A stretch of 64,000 bases of DNA from an uncultured Bryobacterales bacterium (GTDB taxonomy: Bacteria > Acidobacteriota > Terriglobia > Bryobacterales > UBA6623): positions 5,840,062-5,904,061 of the forward strand of contig OX638379.1 in NCBI GenBank assembly GCA_951813605.1, read 5' to 3'. This document shows, piece by piece, positions 28,399 to 40,313 of the stretch; position 1 is the stretch's first letter, and each line of letters opens with the position of its first letter. Under the pieces are notes generated by a model, which saw only the letters and a program-made list of their open reading frames with translations, was not told the DNA's origin and searched no databases. The translations under genes were made by a program, and so were the position numbers.

Positions 28399-28413
28399 GA
28401 ATTGGGCAGTCCG

Positions 28414-29199
28414 ATGAGGGTGGAAAGCCAAGGCGAGGAGCAACACGAGCGGCTGCGGGGCCCGCTGATGGCCTCGGTGTCTTGCCACGGCGTGCTGCTT
28501 GCGGGGTCCTTGGCTTGGGGTGTGTTGAACCCCTCTATCAACCTAGGTTCGCAAGACGCCGGCGGCGGCGGCATAGTCGCAGTAAGCAGCGTTCCGCTCA
28601 ACGTGCCGCGCAGCGACGAGGCAAATCCCGTCGCAAACCCGAGCCAGCACAACGTGCCAGCACCCCCGCAGTTCAGGCGCTCGACCGAGTTGCAGGCACC
28701 CGATCCCGAAGACGCGCCCGCTGCGCCGGTCCCCGGCGCGGTCCGTAAGAAAGCGGACCAGCAGCAAGAGCGCGCCGTCGGCCAGCGTAGCGCCGGCGAA
28801 GCCAACACCAACGAATTGCGATCGTCGAGAGGAGCGGCACTCGAAAGCGAGCTCTATCGGGCAACGCCAGGGAGCGCGCTGGGCTTCGGAGGCCAGAAGG
28901 GCGGGCCGTTCGGAACTAGGTTCGGCTGGTACGCGCAGATCCTGCAGCGCGCCATCGGCGAACAGTGGAGAAGGACCCTCGGCCAAGTCAGGGGCGGATC
29001 CTCCAAGCCGGTCGTGACCTCCTTCGTCATCCATCGCAGCGGGCGAATCGACCAAGTATCGATCGTGCAGTCGAGCGGAAACCGCTCGCTTGACTACTCC
29101 GCCAGGCGCGCGATCAACAATGCCAGCCCGGTACGGCCATTGCCGGCCGGACTCGGCAAGCGTGCCATTGTCATCGAGATGCATTTCCGCCTTGACTGA
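28414..29199 (+). CDS. TolA/TonB-like energy transducer
   Basis: 261 residues. One membrane helix near residues 20-40 is followed by a periplasmic linker rich in Pro, Ala and Gln (about 65-140), and a C-terminal TonB-type domain (about 175-260) with Ser-Phe-Val-Ile-His-Arg-Ser-Gly and Ser-Ser-Gly-Asn-Arg-Ser-Leu-Asp. Its position between tolR and tolB marks it as the functional TolA. It should span the periplasm from TolQR to Pal/TolB. The domain is of TonB type rather than the classic TolA fold, common outside Proteobacteria. ATG 28414 is chosen; a TTG at 28402 is also possible. Confidence 0.82.
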   Translation: MRVESQGEEQHERLRGPLMASVSCHGVLLAGSLAWGVLNPSINLGSQDAGGGGIVAVSSVPLNVPRSDEANPVANPSQHNVPAPPQFRRSTELQAPDPEDAPAAPVPGAVRKKADQQQERAVGQRSAGEANTNELRSSRGAALESELYRATPGSALGFGGQKGGPFGTRFGWYAQILQRAIGEQWRRTLGQVRGGSSKPVVTSFVIHRSGRIDQVSIVQSSGNRSLDYSARRAINNASPVRPLPAGLGKRAIVIEMHFRLD

Positions 29200-29233
29200 A
29201 TTCGGCCTTGACACAAACCAGAGGGGACCCAGC

Positions 29234-30613
29234 ATGAACCAGAATTCGATCGTCGGCGCGAGCTTAATTCTAGCCGCGCTTCTCCCCTTAGCGGCCCAGC
29301 GACGGCCGGACGCAATCATCACGCTCACTGACGAGCAACGCGATCCCCGAATCGCGATCTCGAGAATCCGGGGGCCGATTCCCGCTGCCGAATCCGTGGA
29401 CAGGTTCAACGACGAGCTCTGGAAAGCCCTCGATTCCTCGGGGCGCCTGGATGTCGTGCCCCGCAGCTTCTATCCGCGCAGTTCGCCGCGACAGCCTGAG
29501 GACATCCAATACGACGAGAAAACGGTGCCGCAGGAACCGGCCGCGCGCGGTCTCTGGGCTCAGGGTTGGCGTGACGTCCCGGTGCAATCGCGCTACCTGG
29601 TCTACGGGCGGGTGGACGAAACTGACGGCCGCCTCATGCTTTCCGGCTTCCTCAATGACGTGACCCAGGAGTCGGCCGAGGCCGCCTACATTTTTGGCAA
29701 GCGTTATTTCAGCGAGGCCACCGCGGCCGGGGCTCGCGGGATGGCCTTCGAGTTCGCGCGCGACATTCTGGTGAACCTAGGCTTGGGCGAGGGCTTGGCC
29801 GGTACACGGATTTATTACGTGCATAGGGACGAAGGGGATGACCGCAAGGAGATCTGGGTAATGGACTACGACGGTCGGAACAAGAAGCGCATTACCAATT
29901 ACCGCAACCTGTGCCTGACCCCGGCTATCTCACCGGACGGCAAGCTGATCGCATTCACTACATTTGTCGAGGGCATCCCGAAGATCTATGTGCATTCCTT
30001 GGAAACGGGCCGCCGCCTGCAGTTCTACAACCAAGACGCATCGCTGAACACGACCCCGAGCTTCGCCCCGGACAACAGCGGCATCTTTTTCGCGTCGTCG
30101 CCGACCGGGCGCAGCCAGATCTACCTAGCCGACCTCGATGGGGGGAACCTGCGCAGGGTCTCGTATTCTCGTTCGCTCGATGTGCATCCCATGGTCAATC
30201 CGAAGACTGGCCGGGAAATCGCATTCGTATCGGACACGTCGGGAGAGCCCCAGGTCTATGTCATGGATGTCGACGGCACCAACCGACGGAGACTTTCCGC
30301 GGGAGGCGGAGACGCCGTGCAACCGGCTTGGGACCCCACCGGGGAGCGCCTTACATTCGCGTGGACCAGAGGCTACGAGATCGGAAACTACAATATCTTC
30401 CTCGTGGATGTGGCCAGCAGGGGCTACACGCAGCTCACACACAGCAGGGGTCGCAACGAGCATCCCACCTTTTCCCCAAGCGGCACCCACATCGCTTTCT
30501 CGTCCAACCGGATGGGGGGAACGCAAATCTGGTCGATGCGCGCCGATGGCACGCAAATCAAGCAATTGACCAGCAAGGGTGTCAACGAATCCCCGGTCTG
30601 GGCAGTTAGGTAG
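29234..30613 (+). CDS. tolB: Tol-Pal system periplasmic protein TolB
   Basis: About 459 residues: a short signal peptide (Leu-Ala-Ala-Leu-Leu-Pro), an N-terminal alpha/beta domain (about 30-190), then a six-bladed WD40-like PD40 propeller. The propeller repeats contain Ser-Pro-Asp-Gly-Lys, Ala-Pro-Asp-Asn-Ser-Gly, Asp-Pro-Thr-Gly-Glu and Ser-Pro-Ser-Gly-Thr. It binds Pal and TolA. The start at 29234 has GAGGGG nine bases upstream; an open extension to 29090 overlaps the preceding gene and is rejected. Confidence 0.93.
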   Translation: MNQNSIVGASLILAALLPLAAQRRPDAIITLTDEQRDPRIAISRIRGPIPAAESVDRFNDELWKALDSSGRLDVVPRSFYPRSSPRQPEDIQYDEKTVPQEPAARGLWAQGWRDVPVQSRYLVYGRVDETDGRLMLSGFLNDVTQESAEAAYIFGKRYFSEATAAGARGMAFEFARDILVNLGLGEGLAGTRIYYVHRDEGDDRKEIWVMDYDGRNKKRITNYRNLCLTPAISPDGKLIAFTTFVEGIPKIYVHSLETGRRLQFYNQDASLNTTPSFAPDNSGIFFASSPTGRSQIYLADLDGGNLRRVSYSRSLDVHPMVNPKTGREIAFVSDTSGEPQVYVMDVDGTNRRRLSAGGGDAVQPAWDPTGERLTFAWTRGYEIGNYNIFLVDVASRGYTQLTHSRGRNEHPTFSPSGTHIAFSSNRMGGTQIWSMRADGTQIKQLTSKGVNESPVWAVR

Positions 30614-30731
30614 ACGCCATTGCATCTGAAGCTGTACGAAGCTAACGAACCTGCGGTATGCTATTTGCGTTAACCTATATGTCACAGTCCCGCGGTCCTG
30701 CGGTGACGTAGATGGAGGAAAAGCAGTTCAC

Positions 30732-31496
30732 ATGCGATCGAAGCACAGAATCATTCTGATCGCGGCCGGCATCTTCCTAACGCTGTTTGCGTTCGGCTGC
30801 AAGAAGGAAGCCCCGCCGCCCCCGCCGCCCCCGCCGCCCCCGCCACCCCCGGAGGCTCCTGCGCCCAGCGTCAGCATCACAGCGGAGCCGAGTTCCATCG
30901 AGCGCGGCAAGTCAGCGACCTTGAAGTGGAGCTCGTCCAACGCGGCGAGCGCGGAGCTGAATCAAGGAATCGGAGCCGTGGCAACCAGCGGAAGCAGGGA
31001 GATCTTCCCGACGAGATCGACCGAGTACACCATCACGGTGAAGAACGCGGACGGCAAGACGGCTGCATCGTCGGCGATGGTGACGGTGCGCGCCCCGCCC
31101 CCGCCGCCCCCGCCCCCGCCGCCCAAGCCGGACTTGTCGGAGGCGTTCAGCTCGAGCAATATCCGCGATGCGCTCTTCGACTACGACAAGAGCGACATTC
31201 GGCCCGACGCGGCAGACGCGCTACGTGGCAATGCGGCAGCGATCAAGACGCTGGTGGAGGAGTATCCTGCAGCAGCGTTCCTCGTCGAGGGACACTGCGA
31301 CGAACGCGGCACGACCGAGTACAACCTAGCCTTGGGAGACCGCCGGTCGACCGCCGCGATGGACTTTCTCGTCAATCTTGGCGTGCCCGCAAGCAAGCTG
31401 TCGAAGGTAAGCCTTGGCGAGGAGCGCCCGGTCTGCTCCGAAGAGAGCGAGGCCTGCTACCAGCGTAATCGTCGCGCTCGCATCGCACTCCGCTAG
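30732..31496 (+). CDS. pal: Peptidoglycan-associated lipoprotein Pal with polyproline and Ig-like inserts
   Basis: 254 residues. A lipoprotein signal ends at Cys23 (Phe-Ala-Phe-Gly-Cys, an unusual Ala at -3). It is followed by a run of about 14 prolines, an Ig-like domain (about 45-115), a second run of about 10 prolines, and an OmpA_C domain. The OmpA_C peptidoglycan residues are Asp-Lys-Ser-Asp-Ile-Arg and Gly-His-Cys-Asp-Glu-Arg-Gly-Thr. Canonical Pal has only a short linker, so this version is extended by two stiff spacers and an extra domain. It anchors the outer membrane to peptidoglycan. GGAGGA precedes the start. Synthesis of the proline tracts should need EF-P. Confidence 0.9.
   Translation: MRSKHRIILIAAGIFLTLFAFGCKKEAPPPPPPPPPPPPPEAPAPSVSITAEPSSIERGKSATLKWSSSNAASAELNQGIGAVATSGSREIFPTRSTEYTITVKNADGKTAASSAMVTVRAPPPPPPPPPPKPDLSEAFSSSNIRDALFDYDKSDIRPDAADALRGNAAAIKTLVEEYPAAAFLVEGHCDERGTTEYNLALGDRRSTAAMDFLVNLGVPASKLSKVSLGEERPVCSEESEACYQRNRRARIALR
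30811..30851 (+). repeat. First polyproline-coding GC tandem tract in pal
   Basis: About 40 bases of (CCGCCCCCG)-like units coding an unbroken proline run after the lipid-anchored cysteine. Such tracts slip readily, so proline number may vary between strains. Codons alternate CCG and CCC, so it is not a single homopolymer. Confidence 0.85.
31093..31124 (+). repeat. Second polyproline-coding GC tandem tract in pal
   Basis: About 30 bases of repeated CCGCCCCCG-type units coding about ten prolines. The tract joins the Ig-like insert to the OmpA_C domain and mirrors the tract at 30811. Confidence 0.85.
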
Positions 31497-31539
31497 TAAC
31501 CGCCAGCCGCGTTCCGCATGGGCACTGCCGACTCGAGTT

Positions 31540-31572
31540 CCGCCCGCCGGACGGTCCCGGCTCGGCGGGCGG
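31540..31572 (+). terminator. Stem-loop downstream of pal
   Basis: CCGCCCGCCG (31540-31549) pairs perfectly with CGGCGGGCGG (31563-31572) over a 13-base loop. Some 13 bases further on, TCTTTTAGGTTTT supplies T-rich sequence. This probably ends or attenuates the tol-pal transcript before cpoB. Confidence 0.6.
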
Positions 31573-31615
31573 CCTCGCAGAGTCTTTTAGGTTTTGAGAC
31601 GGCGATTCCTGCTCG

Positions 31616-31632
31616 GAACGCCCAGGGCGTTC
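31616..31632 (+). promoter_or_regulatory. Perfect 7-bp inverted repeat upstream of cpoB
   Basis: GAACGCC-CAG-GGCGTTC, 58 bases before the cpoB start. It could be an operator or a second terminator stem; its position just before a TATACA-like -10 hexamer favours a regulatory site. Inference only. Confidence 0.35.
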
Positions 31633-31690
31633 GGTTCGTCTATACAGCTAATGCGGGAGGCCTCTGTGGGCGCCCGATTGGAGGTACACC

Positions 31691-32548
31691 GTGTCTTTGA
31701 AACAGCTTGCTGCAGCCGTCCTTTCCGTTGGTGTCCTGGTTCCGGCCGCACTCGGACAGAAACAGCAGTACATCCAGCTCCAGCGAGATGTCGCCCTGCT
31801 GCACGAGCAGTTGCGCCAGACGCAGGAGAAGCACTCCGAACGACTAGCGGGCCTGGAAGCGCTGCTCCGGCAAAACACCGAAAAGCAGGACAGGCTGCTC
31901 GCCGGTCAGGCGGTGATCGAGCGGGGCATCGATGCGTTGGACGACGCGCTGACTGAACCCTTGCGAGTCACTTCGGCCAAGGTCGACTCGCTGACTGAGC
32001 AGTTCTCTTCCCTTCGCGCTTCGATCGAAGAGGTCGGCACCTTGGTCGAGCGTCTGAGCTTGGACGTGCAAGACATCAAGACACATTTGACCACGCTGCC
32101 AGTTCCCATGGAAGGAGTGCCGGGTGCCGTCGGCGAAGAGGGCGGAGTGAACACGAGCGAAGCGATCTTCGAAGGGGGCCTAAGCGACTACCTGAGAGGC
32201 AACATTGAAAATGCCCGCGGGCAATTCCTCGACTACTTGGCCCTGTACCCGACACACTCCAAGGCCGACCAAGCACAGTTCTACCTGGCCGAGACCTATT
32301 ACTCGTCTGCCGACTACGAAGAGGCCATCCGGCAATTCGACCAAGTCTATAAGCGGCATCCCCTTAGCAATCTCGCTCCGGACTCGATCTACAAGCAGGG
32401 CATGTCGCATGTCAAGCTGCGCAATCGCGACGACGCAATAAAGTCGTATCAATTGGTCCTAGATCGCTTTCCGGATTCGAATGCGGCGCCGCTGGCTCGC
32501 TCGGAGCTGAACAGCTTGAAGAGCAGCAAGCCGTCTCCCGGTCGCTGA
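31691..32548 (+). CDS. cpoB: Cell division coordinator CpoB (YbgF)
   Basis: 285 residues: signal peptide, a heptad-rich coiled coil (about 25-115), a linker, and a C-terminal TPR domain (about 150-280) with Tyr-Leu-Ala-Leu-Tyr-Pro and Ala-Gln-Phe-Tyr-Leu-Ala-Glu. This is the CpoB/YbgF layout; in E. coli the protein links PBP1B activity to Tol-Pal. The start is GTG at 31691 with an excellent GGAGGT at 31680-31685. It completes the tol-pal cluster, although a stem-loop separates it from pal. Confidence 0.9.
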   Translation: MSLKQLAAAVLSVGVLVPAALGQKQQYIQLQRDVALLHEQLRQTQEKHSERLAGLEALLRQNTEKQDRLLAGQAVIERGIDALDDALTEPLRVTSAKVDSLTEQFSSLRASIEEVGTLVERLSLDVQDIKTHLTTLPVPMEGVPGAVGEEGGVNTSEAIFEGGLSDYLRGNIENARGQFLDYLALYPTHSKADQAQFYLAETYYSSADYEEAIRQFDQVYKRHPLSNLAPDSIYKQGMSHVKLRNRDDAIKSYQLVLDRFPDSNAAPLARSELNSLKSSKPSPGR

Positions 32549-36993: not shown

Positions 36994-37854
36994 ATGCCAG
37001 CCAACTATCAAGCCGAAATCGTCGGAGTCTTCGGCCAGCCGGTCGCAGAGAATCCGACCGGGATAATGCAGGAAGCCGGGTTCGTTGCAGCGGGTCTGAA
37101 CTGGCGCTATCTGAATTTCGAAGTCCCGCCTGAGAACCTGGGAGCCGCGATGCGAGCGATGGACGCGCTGGGAATGCGCGGCGTCAACCTGACGATTCCT
37201 CACAAGGTCGCGGTCATCAGCCACCTGGACGATCTGTCGCCCGAAGCGCGCGCCATCGGCGCGGTGAACACGGTGCGCGTGATTGACGGGAAGAAGATTG
37301 GAGAGAACACGGACGGGAAGGGATTCCTCCGGGGCGTGCGAATTGACGCGGGTGTTAATCCGGCCGGCAAGAGAGTCGTCCTCCTCGGCGCGGGCGGCGC
37401 GGCGCGGGCGATCGGAACCGAGCTTGTGCTAGCCGGGGCCGCCGACCTCCTGGTAGTCAACCGTTCCCTTGTTCGCGGACGGGTAATGGTGGCCGACCTG
37501 CGAACCGCGACTGGCGGTCCTGTTCGCTTCGCGCCTTGGAGGGGCACCTACGCCGTCCCGGAATGGTGCGATGTCTTCGTAAACGCGACCTCAATCGGCC
37601 TGTTTCCAGATGTCGAGGCGATGCCCGATGTTAACTTCGCAGCTGCGTCGAACAAAATGCTGGTGGCGGATGCGGTCTTCAACCCGCCCGAGACGAGACT
37701 CTTGGCAACTGCCAAGGCGCGAGGGCTCGCAACACTTGATGGGCTTTCCATGCTTGTGTATCAAGGCGTGATCGCGTTCGAGATGTGGACTGGTAAATCC
37801 CCCGACGAAAGGGCAATGAAATCCGCGCTTCGCGAAGCACTCGGCGTCGCGTGA
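36994..37854 (+). CDS. aroE: Shikimate dehydrogenase
   Basis: 286 residues. Substrate motifs are Asn-Leu-Thr-Ile-Pro-His-Lys (catalytic Lys, near residue 67) and Gly-Ala-Val-Asn-Thr near 86; the dinucleotide loop is Gly-Ala-Gly-Gly-Ala-Ala-Arg near 130. It reduces 3-dehydroshikimate to shikimate with NADPH. Asn-Arg-Ser following the nucleotide loop matches the NADP-binding basic patch position (Asn-Arg-(Ser/Thr)) of the family. The N-terminal Val-Phe-Gly-Gln-Pro-Val differs from the common Val-(Ile/Phe)-Gly-(Asn/His)-Pro-Ile, but the fold is clear. It is probably cotranscribed with DUF1501, with a terminator-like hairpin after it. Confidence 0.93.
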   Translation: MPANYQAEIVGVFGQPVAENPTGIMQEAGFVAAGLNWRYLNFEVPPENLGAAMRAMDALGMRGVNLTIPHKVAVISHLDDLSPEARAIGAVNTVRVIDGKKIGENTDGKGFLRGVRIDAGVNPAGKRVVLLGAGGAARAIGTELVLAGAADLLVVNRSLVRGRVMVADLRTATGGPVRFAPWRGTYAVPEWCDVFVNATSIGLFPDVEAMPDVNFAAASNKMLVADAVFNPPETRLLATAKARGLATLDGLSMLVYQGVIAFEMWTGKSPDERAMKSALREALGVA

Positions 37855-37878
37855 GATCAAGATCGGAGAGCTAGGTAA

Positions 37879-37903
37879 GGGGCGGCGCCGAAGGTGCCGC
37901 CCC
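37879..37903 (+). terminator. Stem-loop downstream of aroE
   Basis: GGGGCGGC pairs with GCCGCCCC across a small loop, 24 bases after the aroE stop. No T-run follows, so it is only a terminator-like hairpin. Confidence 0.55.
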
Positions 37904-37974
37904 GCGCTGCTTGGATGGAGGCTCTGTCCTGCTCGCTTCCCTGCAGCATGGGAAGCGGGGACCTCTTTGGCGGC

Positions 37975-38254
37975 TCAGAAGCGGCCTCCGCCGCGCCGGC
38001 CGCGATACGTGTTGAACTTGGGGGGCCTCCATCCAAGACCCCGTCGGCGGTGGAACCGGTTCGAGCCCCGGCGAATGCCGTGCCAAATCCGGCAAAACAG
38101 GACCACGCGACCGTTCGGGACGAAGGCCATCGCCGCCGATTCTAGGACCCGTGACGCTGCGGAACCTTGCTTCGCTCGACGCCTGATCGACGTGGGCTCG
38201 TCTGGCAGCGAACCGGCCTAGGAGCTCTTTCCGGTCCTGGTCCGTGATCGGCAT
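37975..38254 (-). pseudogene. Possible small gene, apparently frameshifted
   Basis: On the minus strand a frame opens at 38254 with Met-Pro-Ile-Thr-Asp-Gln-Asp-Arg-Lys and looks coding for about 40 residues. From about 38130 a different frame (Met at 38130) looks coding for 51 residues, ending in Arg-Gly-Arg-Arg-Gly-Gly-Gly-Arg-Phe. Wobble G/C bias switches between the frames near 38130-38145. This is either one gene with a frameshift or two unrelated short frames. No ribosome site is clear and the family is unknown. The RGG-type end resembles the tail of the next gene, at 38581. Confidence 0.25.
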
Positions 38255-38466
38255 GCCAAATGCAAGTGATGGCAGATATGCTCCCTGCTATCGGATCTGC
38301 GGCCATTCGATGCCCGTCCGGGTACCCATATTGAATAGACGGATCAAGCGCTGCGACTTGACAGCTGCTGTGTAAGAGTCTCGCCAAGCCGCGCGGAATA
38401 AGCGAGCAGGATAGCGAAGAAGTTCTTGGGCAATGACCGCCACGATACTGGGCGGTGCAACGCAAA
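38255..38466. other. Gene-poor stretch with one possible C-terminal fragment
   Basis: A minus-strand frame ending at about 38288 gives a plausible helical 50-residue peptide from a GTG near 38440 (contains Phe-Arg-Ala-Ala-Trp-Arg-Asp-Ser-Tyr and ends Glu-Trp-Pro-Gln-Ile-Arg). It has no ribosome site and follows a terminator hairpin, so it is uncertain. Confidence 0.25.
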
Positions 38467-38490
38467 GGGCGGCCCCGGTCGGGGCCGCCC
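38467..38490 (-). terminator. Perfect 11-bp stem-loop downstream of the RGG-rich gene
   Basis: GGGCGGCCCCG-GT-CGGGGCCGCCC is a perfect, extremely stable hairpin 91 bases past the stop of the minus-strand gene at 38581. On that strand it is followed by TTTGCG, a weak T-run. It probably terminates that transcript. Confidence 0.65.
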
Positions 38491-38580
38491 AGTGCTGCAC
38501 GGCAGGAGTGTCAGTCTACCCGCCTCCCCTTGCAGCACGAGGAGACGGGAACTTTCGCGCGGGTGTTAGCCGCGCGTGGT

Positions 38581-39159
38581 TCAGCGCCCGTCCCGGCCAC
38601 CGCGGTCGGGCCCGCCACGCCGACCGCGGGCCGGCCCGGCCTGTCTGCCCCACGGGGCCCGGCCACCGGCTCGGAAGCCGGGACCGGGCCGAGAGCGATT
38701 CCCTCTTCGAAAGGCGGCGGCACCGCGGAATCTGCCCGCCCCGCGAAAGGCCCTGCCGCCCCTAGAACCTCTCGCTCGGGCGCCTCGGGCCCCTAGATTA
38801 GGACGGGGAGCGTCGGTCAGGCCCAAGACCGCGGCTCCCGCGAACGCCCGCATCGTCGCCACAGCCGCTTTGGCTTCTTCGACTTTAGCTCTTTGCTCGT
38901 CAGTGAGGATCGCTTGCACCTTTGCAGTCTGCTCTTGGCGCCAGGATTGGAGCTGTTCCCGGTCTTGATCCCGGGGCGGTCTCTCTCGGCGGATCTCCCG
39001 GATCTGGTCGACCTGCTCTGTGGTCAGGCCGAATGCCTCAACGGCGGCTTCGATTGGATTGCCTCGGCCTCGATCCCGGGAACCTTCCTGCCCGAAGGCA
39101 GTGATGGACGCCCCCAAAACGGCGATGCCGACGACGATGGCTTGCTTGTTTTGAATCAT
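38581..39159 (-). CDS. Exported Spy/CpxP-like protein with long RG/RGG-rich tail
   Basis: 192 residues. A signal peptide (Met-Ile-Gln-Asn-Lys then hydrophobic, cleaved after Ala-Phe-Gly-Gln) is followed by a helical segment (about 35-110) with Leu-Thr-Thr-Glu-Gln-Val-Asp-Gln-Ile and Leu-Thr-Asp-Glu-Gln-Arg. This is the repeated LTxEQ pattern of Spy/CpxP-type periplasmic chaperones and zinc resistance proteins. The last about 75 residues are almost wholly Gly, Arg, Ala and Pro, with many RG and RGG units and Phe-Arg-Gly. Such a tail is strongly basic and disordered. In an exported protein it may bind anionic polymers such as LPS, nucleic acid or teichoic-like chains. Function is inferred. Confidence 0.8.
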   Translation of the reverse strand: MIQNKQAIVVGIAVLGASITAFGQEGSRDRGRGNPIEAAVEAFGLTTEQVDQIREIRRERPPRDQDREQLQSWRQEQTAKVQAILTDEQRAKVEEAKAAVATMRAFAGAAVLGLTDAPRPNLGARGARARGSRGGRAFRGAGRFRGAAAFRRGNRSRPGPGFRAGGRAPWGRQAGPARGRRGGPDRGGRDGR

Positions 39160-39341
39160 GGTGTAGTCCTCGCTTTCGGTTTGTCGGTACGACTCGGGGT
39201 GTCGTCGCTGATCAGCGCCGCCGAGCGTGTGTATTGGAATAGACGGATGTTACGCGCCGGTGTGTCGCTTCAGCTGTAAAGCTCTAGTCAAAAGACGCGA
39301 CGAGCTGCGGTGCACCGTGGCAGCGCGCCGGCATCCCGAAA

Positions 39342-40313
39342 TCAGCGTCGGCCGCGCGCGTGCGCGATGATTTCCTTCGCCCCGAAGATAGGCCTCCCCT
39401 GGCTCTCGAAATAAGTTCGCATCAGCACTTCGCCGATCAGGCCCGTGCAGAGGAACTGCAGTCCGGTAAGCGCAAGCACGGATCCGGCAATCAGCAACGG
39501 TCCGTGCTCCGCCATGACGTGAATGCCCTGAAGTTTCCTGACGACGAGGTACGAGAGCGCAACGACGCCCGCACCTCCGCAAAGGATTCCCAAGGAGCCG
39601 AAGAAATGCATGGGGCGTGTTAGGTAGCGCGACAGGAAGGCGACGGTCAGCAAGTCGAACAACACCCGGATTGTGCGACCCAATCCGTAGTGCGAGCGCC
39701 CTGCAGCACGCTCGAAGTTCCCGATCGGCACTTCCGCGATGCGCGCACCGTGTAGAGCCGCCAAGACAGGAATAAAGCGGTGCAAATCACCGTACAGGCG
39801 AAGTTGGTCTAGCAGCTCAGCGCGATAAGCCTTGAACGTGCCGCCGAAATCCCGCAGTTCTACTCCCGACAGCTTGCGGATCATCCAGTTGGCGACCCTA
39901 GACGGCAAGCGTCGAGTCAGAAGCCGGTCAGTCCGGTTCGCGCGCCACCCGTTCGCTAGGTCGAATCCCTCGTCGATTTTCCCCAGCAGAGCCGGGATGT
40001 CTTCGGGTGCATGCTGCAAGTCACCGTCCATAGCCACCACGATCTCTCCGGTGGCGGTCTCGAAACCGGCCGCGAGCGCGGCCGTCTGGCCGGAGTTGCG
40101 ACGCAAGCAGACCGCAGTCAGGCGGGACTCGTTCCGGGCTAGGTTCGTTAGGAGGCGCACGCTGCCATCGGTGGAAGCGTCGTCCACGATGACAATCTCG
40201 AACGTTCGGCCGACCTCTTCGAGCGTCGAGAGGAGGCGGTCGAACAGCGGGAGAAGATTCTGCTCCTCGTTGTGGGCCGGTATGACAACCGAGATCGCGG
40301 GACGATCATCCAT
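39342..40313 (-). CDS. Polyprenyl-phosphate glycosyltransferase, GT2 with two C-terminal membrane helices
   Basis: 323 residues. The N-terminal GT-A domain has Val-Val-Ile-Pro-Ala-His-Asn-Glu, Asp-Asp-Ala-Ser-Thr-Asp-Gly-Ser, and Met-Asp-Gly-Asp-Leu-Gln (DxD). Two hydrophobic helices follow at about 235-260 and 275-300. The layout is that of DPM/ArnC-type enzymes that move a sugar from a nucleotide donor onto undecaprenyl phosphate for envelope glycan decoration. The start is six bases after the maf stop, so it shares that operon. The donor sugar cannot be told. Confidence 0.88.
   Translation of the reverse strand: MDDRPAISVVIPAHNEEQNLLPLFDRLLSTLEEVGRTFEIVIVDDASTDGSVRLLTNLARNESRLTAVCLRRNSGQTAALAAGFETATGEIVVAMDGDLQHAPEDIPALLGKIDEGFDLANGWRANRTDRLLTRRLPSRVANWMIRKLSGVELRDFGGTFKAYRAELLDQLRLYGDLHRFIPVLAALHGARIAEVPIGNFERAAGRSHYGLGRTIRVLFDLLTVAFLSRYLTRPMHFFGSLGILCGGAGVVALSYLVVRKLQGIHVMAEHGPLLIAGSVLALTGLQFLCTGLIGEVLMRTYFESQGRPIFGAKEIIAHARGRR

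Follow-up and report, generated by a model that had tools for sequence, protein, structure and literature searches.

A Spy/CpxP-like, probable envelope protein with a conserved RG/RGG tail, predicted to be exported, in a genus of Bryobacterales

Spy, a periplasmic chaperone of E. coli (3o39, 3oeo), is a small helical protein that is exported and carries two LTxEQ motifs. It acts as an ATP-independent holdase and forms a dimeric cradle, and the fold that it shares with CpxP has four helices. Passages of PMC8144458 describe its concave surface as mostly positive and assign to long-range electrostatics the finding of clients and the speed of their capture, while passages of PMC8546600 propose that the basic tips of Skp contact the negatively charged outer membrane and suggest the same for Spy. 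For RG and RGG repeats, passages of PMC11132505 tie bacterial RG/GR low-complexity regions to RNA metabolism and to the activity of RNA helicases, in line with the premise of an earlier note on the DNA analysed here that RGG tails are mostly found on RNA-binding proteins. Among the matches listed in our literature search, none dealt with RGG proteins exported by bacteria or with RGG-tailed relatives of Spy and CpxP, and four bacterial or secretion terms looked for in PMC9957100 did not occur there.

Here we describe a gene for a Spy/CpxP-like protein ending in an RG/RGG tail, located in a window of 64,000 nucleotides (the whole stretch of DNA analysed) from the 6.19-Mb, single-contig genome of an uncultured Bryobacterales bacterium. 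The coding sequence (192 aa) occupies 38581..39159 on the minus strand. A frame check of the window places its ATG at 39159 and its stop at 38581, GAGG is located 12-9 nt 5' of the ATG, and orthologues are present in 10/10 other sampled genomes of the same genus. A spurious frame is ruled out by the orthologues, the gene order, the ribosome-binding site and selection. The protein resembles Spy in being small, apparently exported and, by prediction, helical, with two LTxEQ motifs, but differs from it in the net acidic core, in the RG tail (58-82 residues among the tailed proteins) and in scoring below the Pfam and NCBIfam cut-offs. Most likely it is a divergent envelope protein of the Spy/CpxP type whose client- or membrane-seeking charge has moved to a disordered tail. 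New here, at the level of sequence, are the division between tailless proteins with basic cores and tailed proteins with acidic ones, a promoter-like element present in 11/11 genomes and a second RG-tailed gene in six genomes.

The protein begins with a putative Sec-type signal sequence (residues 1-23; 39091..39159, minus strand), recognised by eye as a hydrophobic stretch followed by a probable cleavage point between TAFG and QE. A pattern search found an A/G-Q boundary in 12/12 tailed proteins, whose signal regions look typical by eye, and the signal sequence backs the earlier proposal that the protein is exported. Next come the mature core (residues 24-116; 38812..39090, minus strand), described by AlphaFold2, VIA-align and charge computation and carrying a net charge of -2, and the RG/RGG tail (residues 117-192; 38584..38811, minus strand), characterised by composition, selection and pLDDT and predicted to be disordered. 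Two LTxxQ-type motifs, read from the sequence and alignment A1, lie in the core: LTTEQ at residues 45-49 (39013..39027, minus strand) and LTDEQ at residues 85-89 (38893..38907, minus strand). Q49, L85 and Q89 are invariant in 19/19 aligned members, and the other rows differ at the first two motif letters (e.g. FT, LD, LS, LE, LN). The distance between the two motifs appears shorter than in Spy, which counts against a Spy-type reading.

Against PF07813 the protein scores 15.0 bits (16.5 for residues 1-120), under the Pfam gathering cut-off of 24.3, and we therefore call it Spy/CpxP-like rather than filing it as a PF07813 member. Nine of the 19 family members matched PF07813 at E values up to 1, and sub-threshold NCBIfam matches were obtained with the CpxP model for 13/19 and with the Spy model for 7/19. 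When the whole genome was scanned with PF07813, the tailed locus reached E 1.55 and nothing matched at E 0.001. At that level PF07813 proteins were found in 236/297 sampled Acidobacteriota genomes, and since the source genome is not among them the tailed core must be highly divergent. When PDB sequences were searched with the core profile, the best match (E 0.02) was an unrelated 31-residue stretch.

AlphaFold2, run on 19 rows, predicts the tail to be disordered and the core to be helical, with helices at residues 35-43, 47-58, 67-84 and 87-111. Mean pLDDT is 60.7 for the model as a whole. Block means of pLDDT are 76-91 over residues 41-110, and values fall below 50 at residues 1-32, 121-159 and 161-192. 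In VIA-align the top seven rows have Z scores of 6.5-7.9 and the next row 4.5. Six of the seven have CpxP or Spy in their titles; the remaining one, 6bie, we take to be a Spy entry, although its title does not say so. The best row is CpxP (3qzc; 74 residues, 3.0 A, Z 7.9); Spy is aligned with the predicted core over 61 residues at 1.8 A and 28% identity (3o39) and over 58 residues at 2.0 A and 29% identity (3oeo). The CpxP and Spy rows span 58-74 residues with Z scores under the level that the tool trusts for helical models, for which it warns that a common arrangement alone can give Z 13. In Foldseek the first rank went to a syntaxin domain and the second to Spy (E 4.7), with no match below 0.001. 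We take the VIA-align ranking as support for, and not as proof of, a resemblance to CpxP and Spy. With the two LTxEQ motifs and this ranking, the description of the protein as Spy/CpxP-like in the earlier note stands, at family scores below threshold.

The tail comprises the 76 residues after a conserved LGLTD. It contains 29% R and 28% G, no K and two acidic residues, and its net charge is +20. Its 9 RG, 3 RGG and 7 GR form clustered repeats within a predicted disordered region, as in the definition of RGG/RG proteins. R+G amounts to 57% in the tail frame versus 24-39% in the five other frames of the tail DNA, and this level was reached by 0/2000 base shuffles and by 0/2000 GC-matched random sequences. 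Across the genus, the R+G content of each of the 12 tailed genes was reached by 0-3/2000 base shuffles, and the RG/GR count by none of 2000 shuffles in ten genes, by 2 in one and by 33 in the second copy of genome G004. The RG/RGG tail that had been noticed from the sequence alone is thus real and beyond chance. Within a list of 188 ORFs (the longest non-overlapping ones of at least 150 aa from the window and ten orthologous regions), at least eight RG/GR pairs in the last 60 residues were found in 12, namely the window gene, seven orthologues and four copies of a partner gene described below; three orthologues (G002, G004, G009) and two partners (G003, G005) fall outside this list where longer overlapping frames take their place, a displacement that was seen for the G004 and G009 orthologues and is presumed for G002. 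One further ORF in the list passes only 40% R+G. In a similarity search of the source genome with the tail, the next match after the tail itself had E 0.04 and contained an internal stop.

Such a tail might have no specific function and be a relaxed C-terminal extension, rich in GC, whose sequence drifts, and a GC-rich tail without conservation was the outcome named beforehand in the earlier note as speaking against its reading. Tail identity of only 0.36-0.65 between distant congeners is what this compositional explanation would lead one to see, and milder G/R/M/P-rich tails do occur on other acidobacterial LTXXQ proteins. However, GC3 is not raised in the tail: it equals that of the core in the window gene (0.67 versus 0.66) and is lower than that of the core in the other 11 of the 12 tailed genes. 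From GC3 and the shuffles, the GC-richness of the tail results from its amino acids, not the reverse. Furthermore, an RG-rich tail of 58-82 residues is retained in 11/11 genomes of the genus despite synonymous divergence mostly >1 between distant ones. Tail dN/dS is 0.13-0.44 in 15/16 close pairs, each with a bootstrap upper limit <1, in a set (15 pairs within a six-genome clade plus G008-G002) whose members share history and are not independent, and by a counting method that ignores codon bias. The sixteenth pair, G001-G006, has 8 changes only (tail dN/dS 0.68, limits 0.10-3.4). The GC3 values, the shuffles and dN/dS rule out that the tail arose by GC drift, and we consider a purely compositional tail improbable. 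Judged from these comparisons, the tail is under purifying selection, and between distant congeners its composition and length are kept rather than its sequence.

The pairing of an LTXXQ-type core with such a tail, put forward in the earlier note as unusual, turned out to be less rare than that note suggests. We collected 90 acidobacterial PF07813 loci from the best matches and counted the tail from the end of the Pfam match. At least 30 residues follow the match in 34/90, five of which have at least 50% R+G in that stretch, and at least eight RG/GR pairs are found in 2/90. Two acidobacterial LTXXQ proteins (L200 and L210) end in tails of the FGRGPG or GRGM type; like the window protein they join an LTXXQ domain to a C-terminal Gly/Arg-rich extension, and unlike the window tail theirs also hold FGRGPG-type or Met-rich stretches. 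G/R-rich ends therefore already occur in the acidobacterial LTXXQ family and, on sequence, the tailed protein is an extreme, conserved variant and not a new kind.

In composition and in its RG/RGG repeats the tail matches the RGG/RG regions of RNA-binding proteins, from which the protein differs by its signal sequence for export and by having no RNA-binding domain in Pfam. It might then act as a nucleic-acid binder outside the cytoplasm, the tail holding DNA or RNA present outside the cell so as to anchor biofilms, take the nucleic acid up or protect it. According to passages of PMC6821194, the binding of RNA by RG/RGG regions has degenerate specificity, and those rich in arginine bind DNA as well, and each tail has 6-11 RG with which it could do so. 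Against this, the signal sequence would remove the protein from cellular RNA, no nucleic-acid domain was detected with Pfam and none of the five mapped neighbours is one for DNA uptake, and we regard this function as rather improbable.

A protein search of 61 genomes gave matches in 13: the source genome, each of its 10 congeners and, weakly, two of the order. With the core profile, 63/257 genomes of the order matched at E 0.001, the best outside the genus at 6.8e-9. By their titles, 17/20 matching records are Bryobacterales or Terriglobia MAGs, and three weak ones come from elsewhere. By the names of the MAGs, the bacterium and its relatives probably come from sponges. A second, tandem copy of the tailed gene is present in G004. 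In a comparison of gene order that covered six genes only, the recurrent arrangement was DUF1501, AroE, the tailed gene, a family 2 glycosyltransferase, Maf and a cytochrome-c-peroxidase-like gene. All five neighbours are present in 8/10 other genomes, and the contig of G002 ends before the last one. AroE (shikimate dehydrogenase; 36994..37854, plus strand), which is convergent with the tailed gene, lies on the same side of it in 10/10 other genomes, with the partner gene in between in six genomes and the second tailed copy in G004. The upstream glycosyltransferase (39342..40313, minus strand) adjoins the tailed gene in 9/10 other genomes. Its closest NCBIfam model is undecaprenyl-phosphate 4-deoxy-4-formamido-L-arabinose transferase, at 198 bits versus a cut-off of 529.

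Seven of the 10 congeners (G003, G005-G010) also carry tailless relatives of 121-124 residues, which end right after the LGL segment. No match to a tailless relative was found in G001, G002, G004 or the source genome, some of these assemblies being incomplete. In an unrooted tree of the core, one branch with support 100/99 splits tailed from tailless rows. Over aligned residues 35-114 the net charge of the core is -2 to -6 in 12/12 tailed proteins and +2 to +7 in 7/7 tailless ones, a contrast that lies between two clades and hence represents about one evolutionary event. The tails themselves carry +9 to +22 across the tailed proteins, and +15 to +22 in first copies. As far as sequence can tell, the core contrast runs in the direction that a transfer of positive charge to the tail would produce. 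In G007 a tailless paralogue (L038, G007:C118) is next to the glycosyltransferase, a place taken in other genomes by the tailed gene, and the tailed gene of G007 lies beside AroE on another contig; the two may once have formed a tandem pair.

Given the acidic core and, in first copies, a tail of +15 to +22, it is simplest to suppose that a Spy-like attraction comes from the tail. Tentatively, and with confidence slightly short of even, we propose that the protein is of the Spy/CpxP type and works in the envelope, probably as a holdase-like chaperone or a factor in envelope stress. The basic charge that Spy has on its concave client surface would sit instead on the long, disordered C-terminal RG tail. 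After Sec export, the core would bind partly unfolded envelope proteins and the tail would serve as a flexible electrostatic antenna or tether toward anionic partners, candidates for which are acidic unfolded clients, outer-membrane phosphates and surface polysaccharide. A dedicated activator that acts on the conserved box described below may control expression. From the charge pattern and the Spy literature, we infer that a client or envelope role is likelier than nucleic-acid binding. If our proposal is correct, a small periplasmic chaperone can pass positive charge from its folded part to a disordered RG tail, and genomes that have both kinds of paralogue, tailless/basic and tailed/acidic, would provide a natural test of the Spy electrostatic model. 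RGG-type regions would then extend to exported bacterial proteins, with envelope or extracellular polyanions as partners.

The second RG-tailed gene, which we call the partner, is located between the tailed gene and AroE in 6/11 genomes (G001, G003, G005, G006, G009 and G010); no partner match was obtained in the other five, the source genome included. It is found at L026:9861-10439 (plus strand) and at corresponding places in L027-L031. Its product has a signal-like start, an acidic head and an RG-rich end with RGRGGRGGNRF, and no Pfam family was found for it. In the two proteins measured the head carries -6 and the tail +9 and +10. By eye, LRALLGSSMLALSQ of the partner resembles LRALPGALMLGLVD of a tailed protein, and given this likeness the partner may be a decayed copy of the tailed gene.

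A protein with opposite charges in its core and tail could also be a self-associating block polyampholyte, in which acidic cores and RG tails attract between molecules and, with the partner where present, assemble into periplasmic or extracellular oligomers or condensates. The acidic core in all 12 tailed proteins and their positive tails are in keeping with this, as are the charges of the partner, its placement behind the same promoter-like element in six genomes (see below) and the 2-7 aromatic residues in 11/12 tails. Yet these aromatic residues are few for a driver of phase separation, the core charge is modest and a partner match is absent from five genomes including the source genome; we think self-association unlikely to be the explanation. 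One can also conceive of an exported module, made up of the tailed Spy-like protein and, in some genomes, the acidic-head/RG-end protein, behind a dedicated promoter element common to the two. With the chaperone core as scaffold, this module would form assemblies or condensates that are driven by RG and bind polyanions, in the envelope or at the cell surface of Bryobacterales associated with sponges, so that RGG chemistry would take place outside the cytoplasm. We offer this as speculation with a distinctly low chance of being right.

Upstream of the tailed gene lies a box, TTGAC-N6-TTTACA (39275..39291, minus strand), with an 11-bp direct-repeat spacing, conserved as TTnAC-N6-TTTACA in 11/11 first copies. 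CGTCTA, a candidate -10 element, follows 29 nt after TTTACA (39240..39245, minus strand). CGTCT is present in 11/11 at a spacing of 29-31, and the distance from CGTCT to the ATG is 63-82 nt in 11/11 tailed first copies. The second copy of G004 has TTTACA-N29-CGTC only, and TTTACA-N30-CGTCTA is located upstream of the partner gene in all six genomes, four of which have the full TTnAC box there. We take the box to be a response-regulator-type repeat and CGTCTA to be an ECF-like -10; an 11-bp direct-repeat spacing is known for OmpR-type response regulators. No sigma-70-type promoter was found in 37800-39700, nor, by eye, a consistent -35 partner 16-17 nt before CGTCTA.

The pattern TTTACA-N26-30-CGTCTA occurs in 17 places in the 11 genomes, 15 of them at the tailed locus (nine at tailed and six at partner genes) and 2 elsewhere, and its reversed control in 7 places. 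The elements of G002 and G008, with a spacing of 31, escape this pattern. In the source genome the box by itself is not enriched (2 places versus 6 for the reversed control), and since it is not rare the evidence lies in its conservation at the tailed locus. At its other occurrence there (L102), no obvious relative of the tailed gene was seen among ORFs of at least 80 aa. Using a relaxed pattern, a similar first box was found upstream of 4/7 tailless genes.

A box of this kind on tailed and some tailless copies, together with CpxP as the top VIA-align row, raises the possibility of a CpxP-like sensor or regulator that reports the state of the envelope to a sensor kinase, with the tail titrating an anionic signal. 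However, the protein differs from CpxP by its RG tail and by an identity of 16% only, and the five mapped neighbours of the tailed gene include no CpxA/CpxR-like gene or any other kinase or regulator. A search of the 11 genomes for a regulon of the promoter-like element yielded the 2 places outside the locus and no regulon, and the box is no commoner than its reversed control. We give such a sensor little credence, and retain the envelope protein with its positive charge on the tail as the preferred reading.

At the other end of the gene, a terminator scan detected a terminator-like hairpin of 10 G-C pairs followed by TTTGCGTT (38467..38490, minus strand). As the scan returned 4 sites versus a mean of 1.6 in shuffles, only the strength and position of the hairpin speak for a terminator. 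Similar hairpins are seen by eye 3' of the stop in most other orthologues. In a different part of the window (28402-32548, plus strand), we noted by eye a Tol-Pal-like block with a TonB/TolA-like C-terminus and TolB-like, Pal-like and coiled-coil/TPR members.
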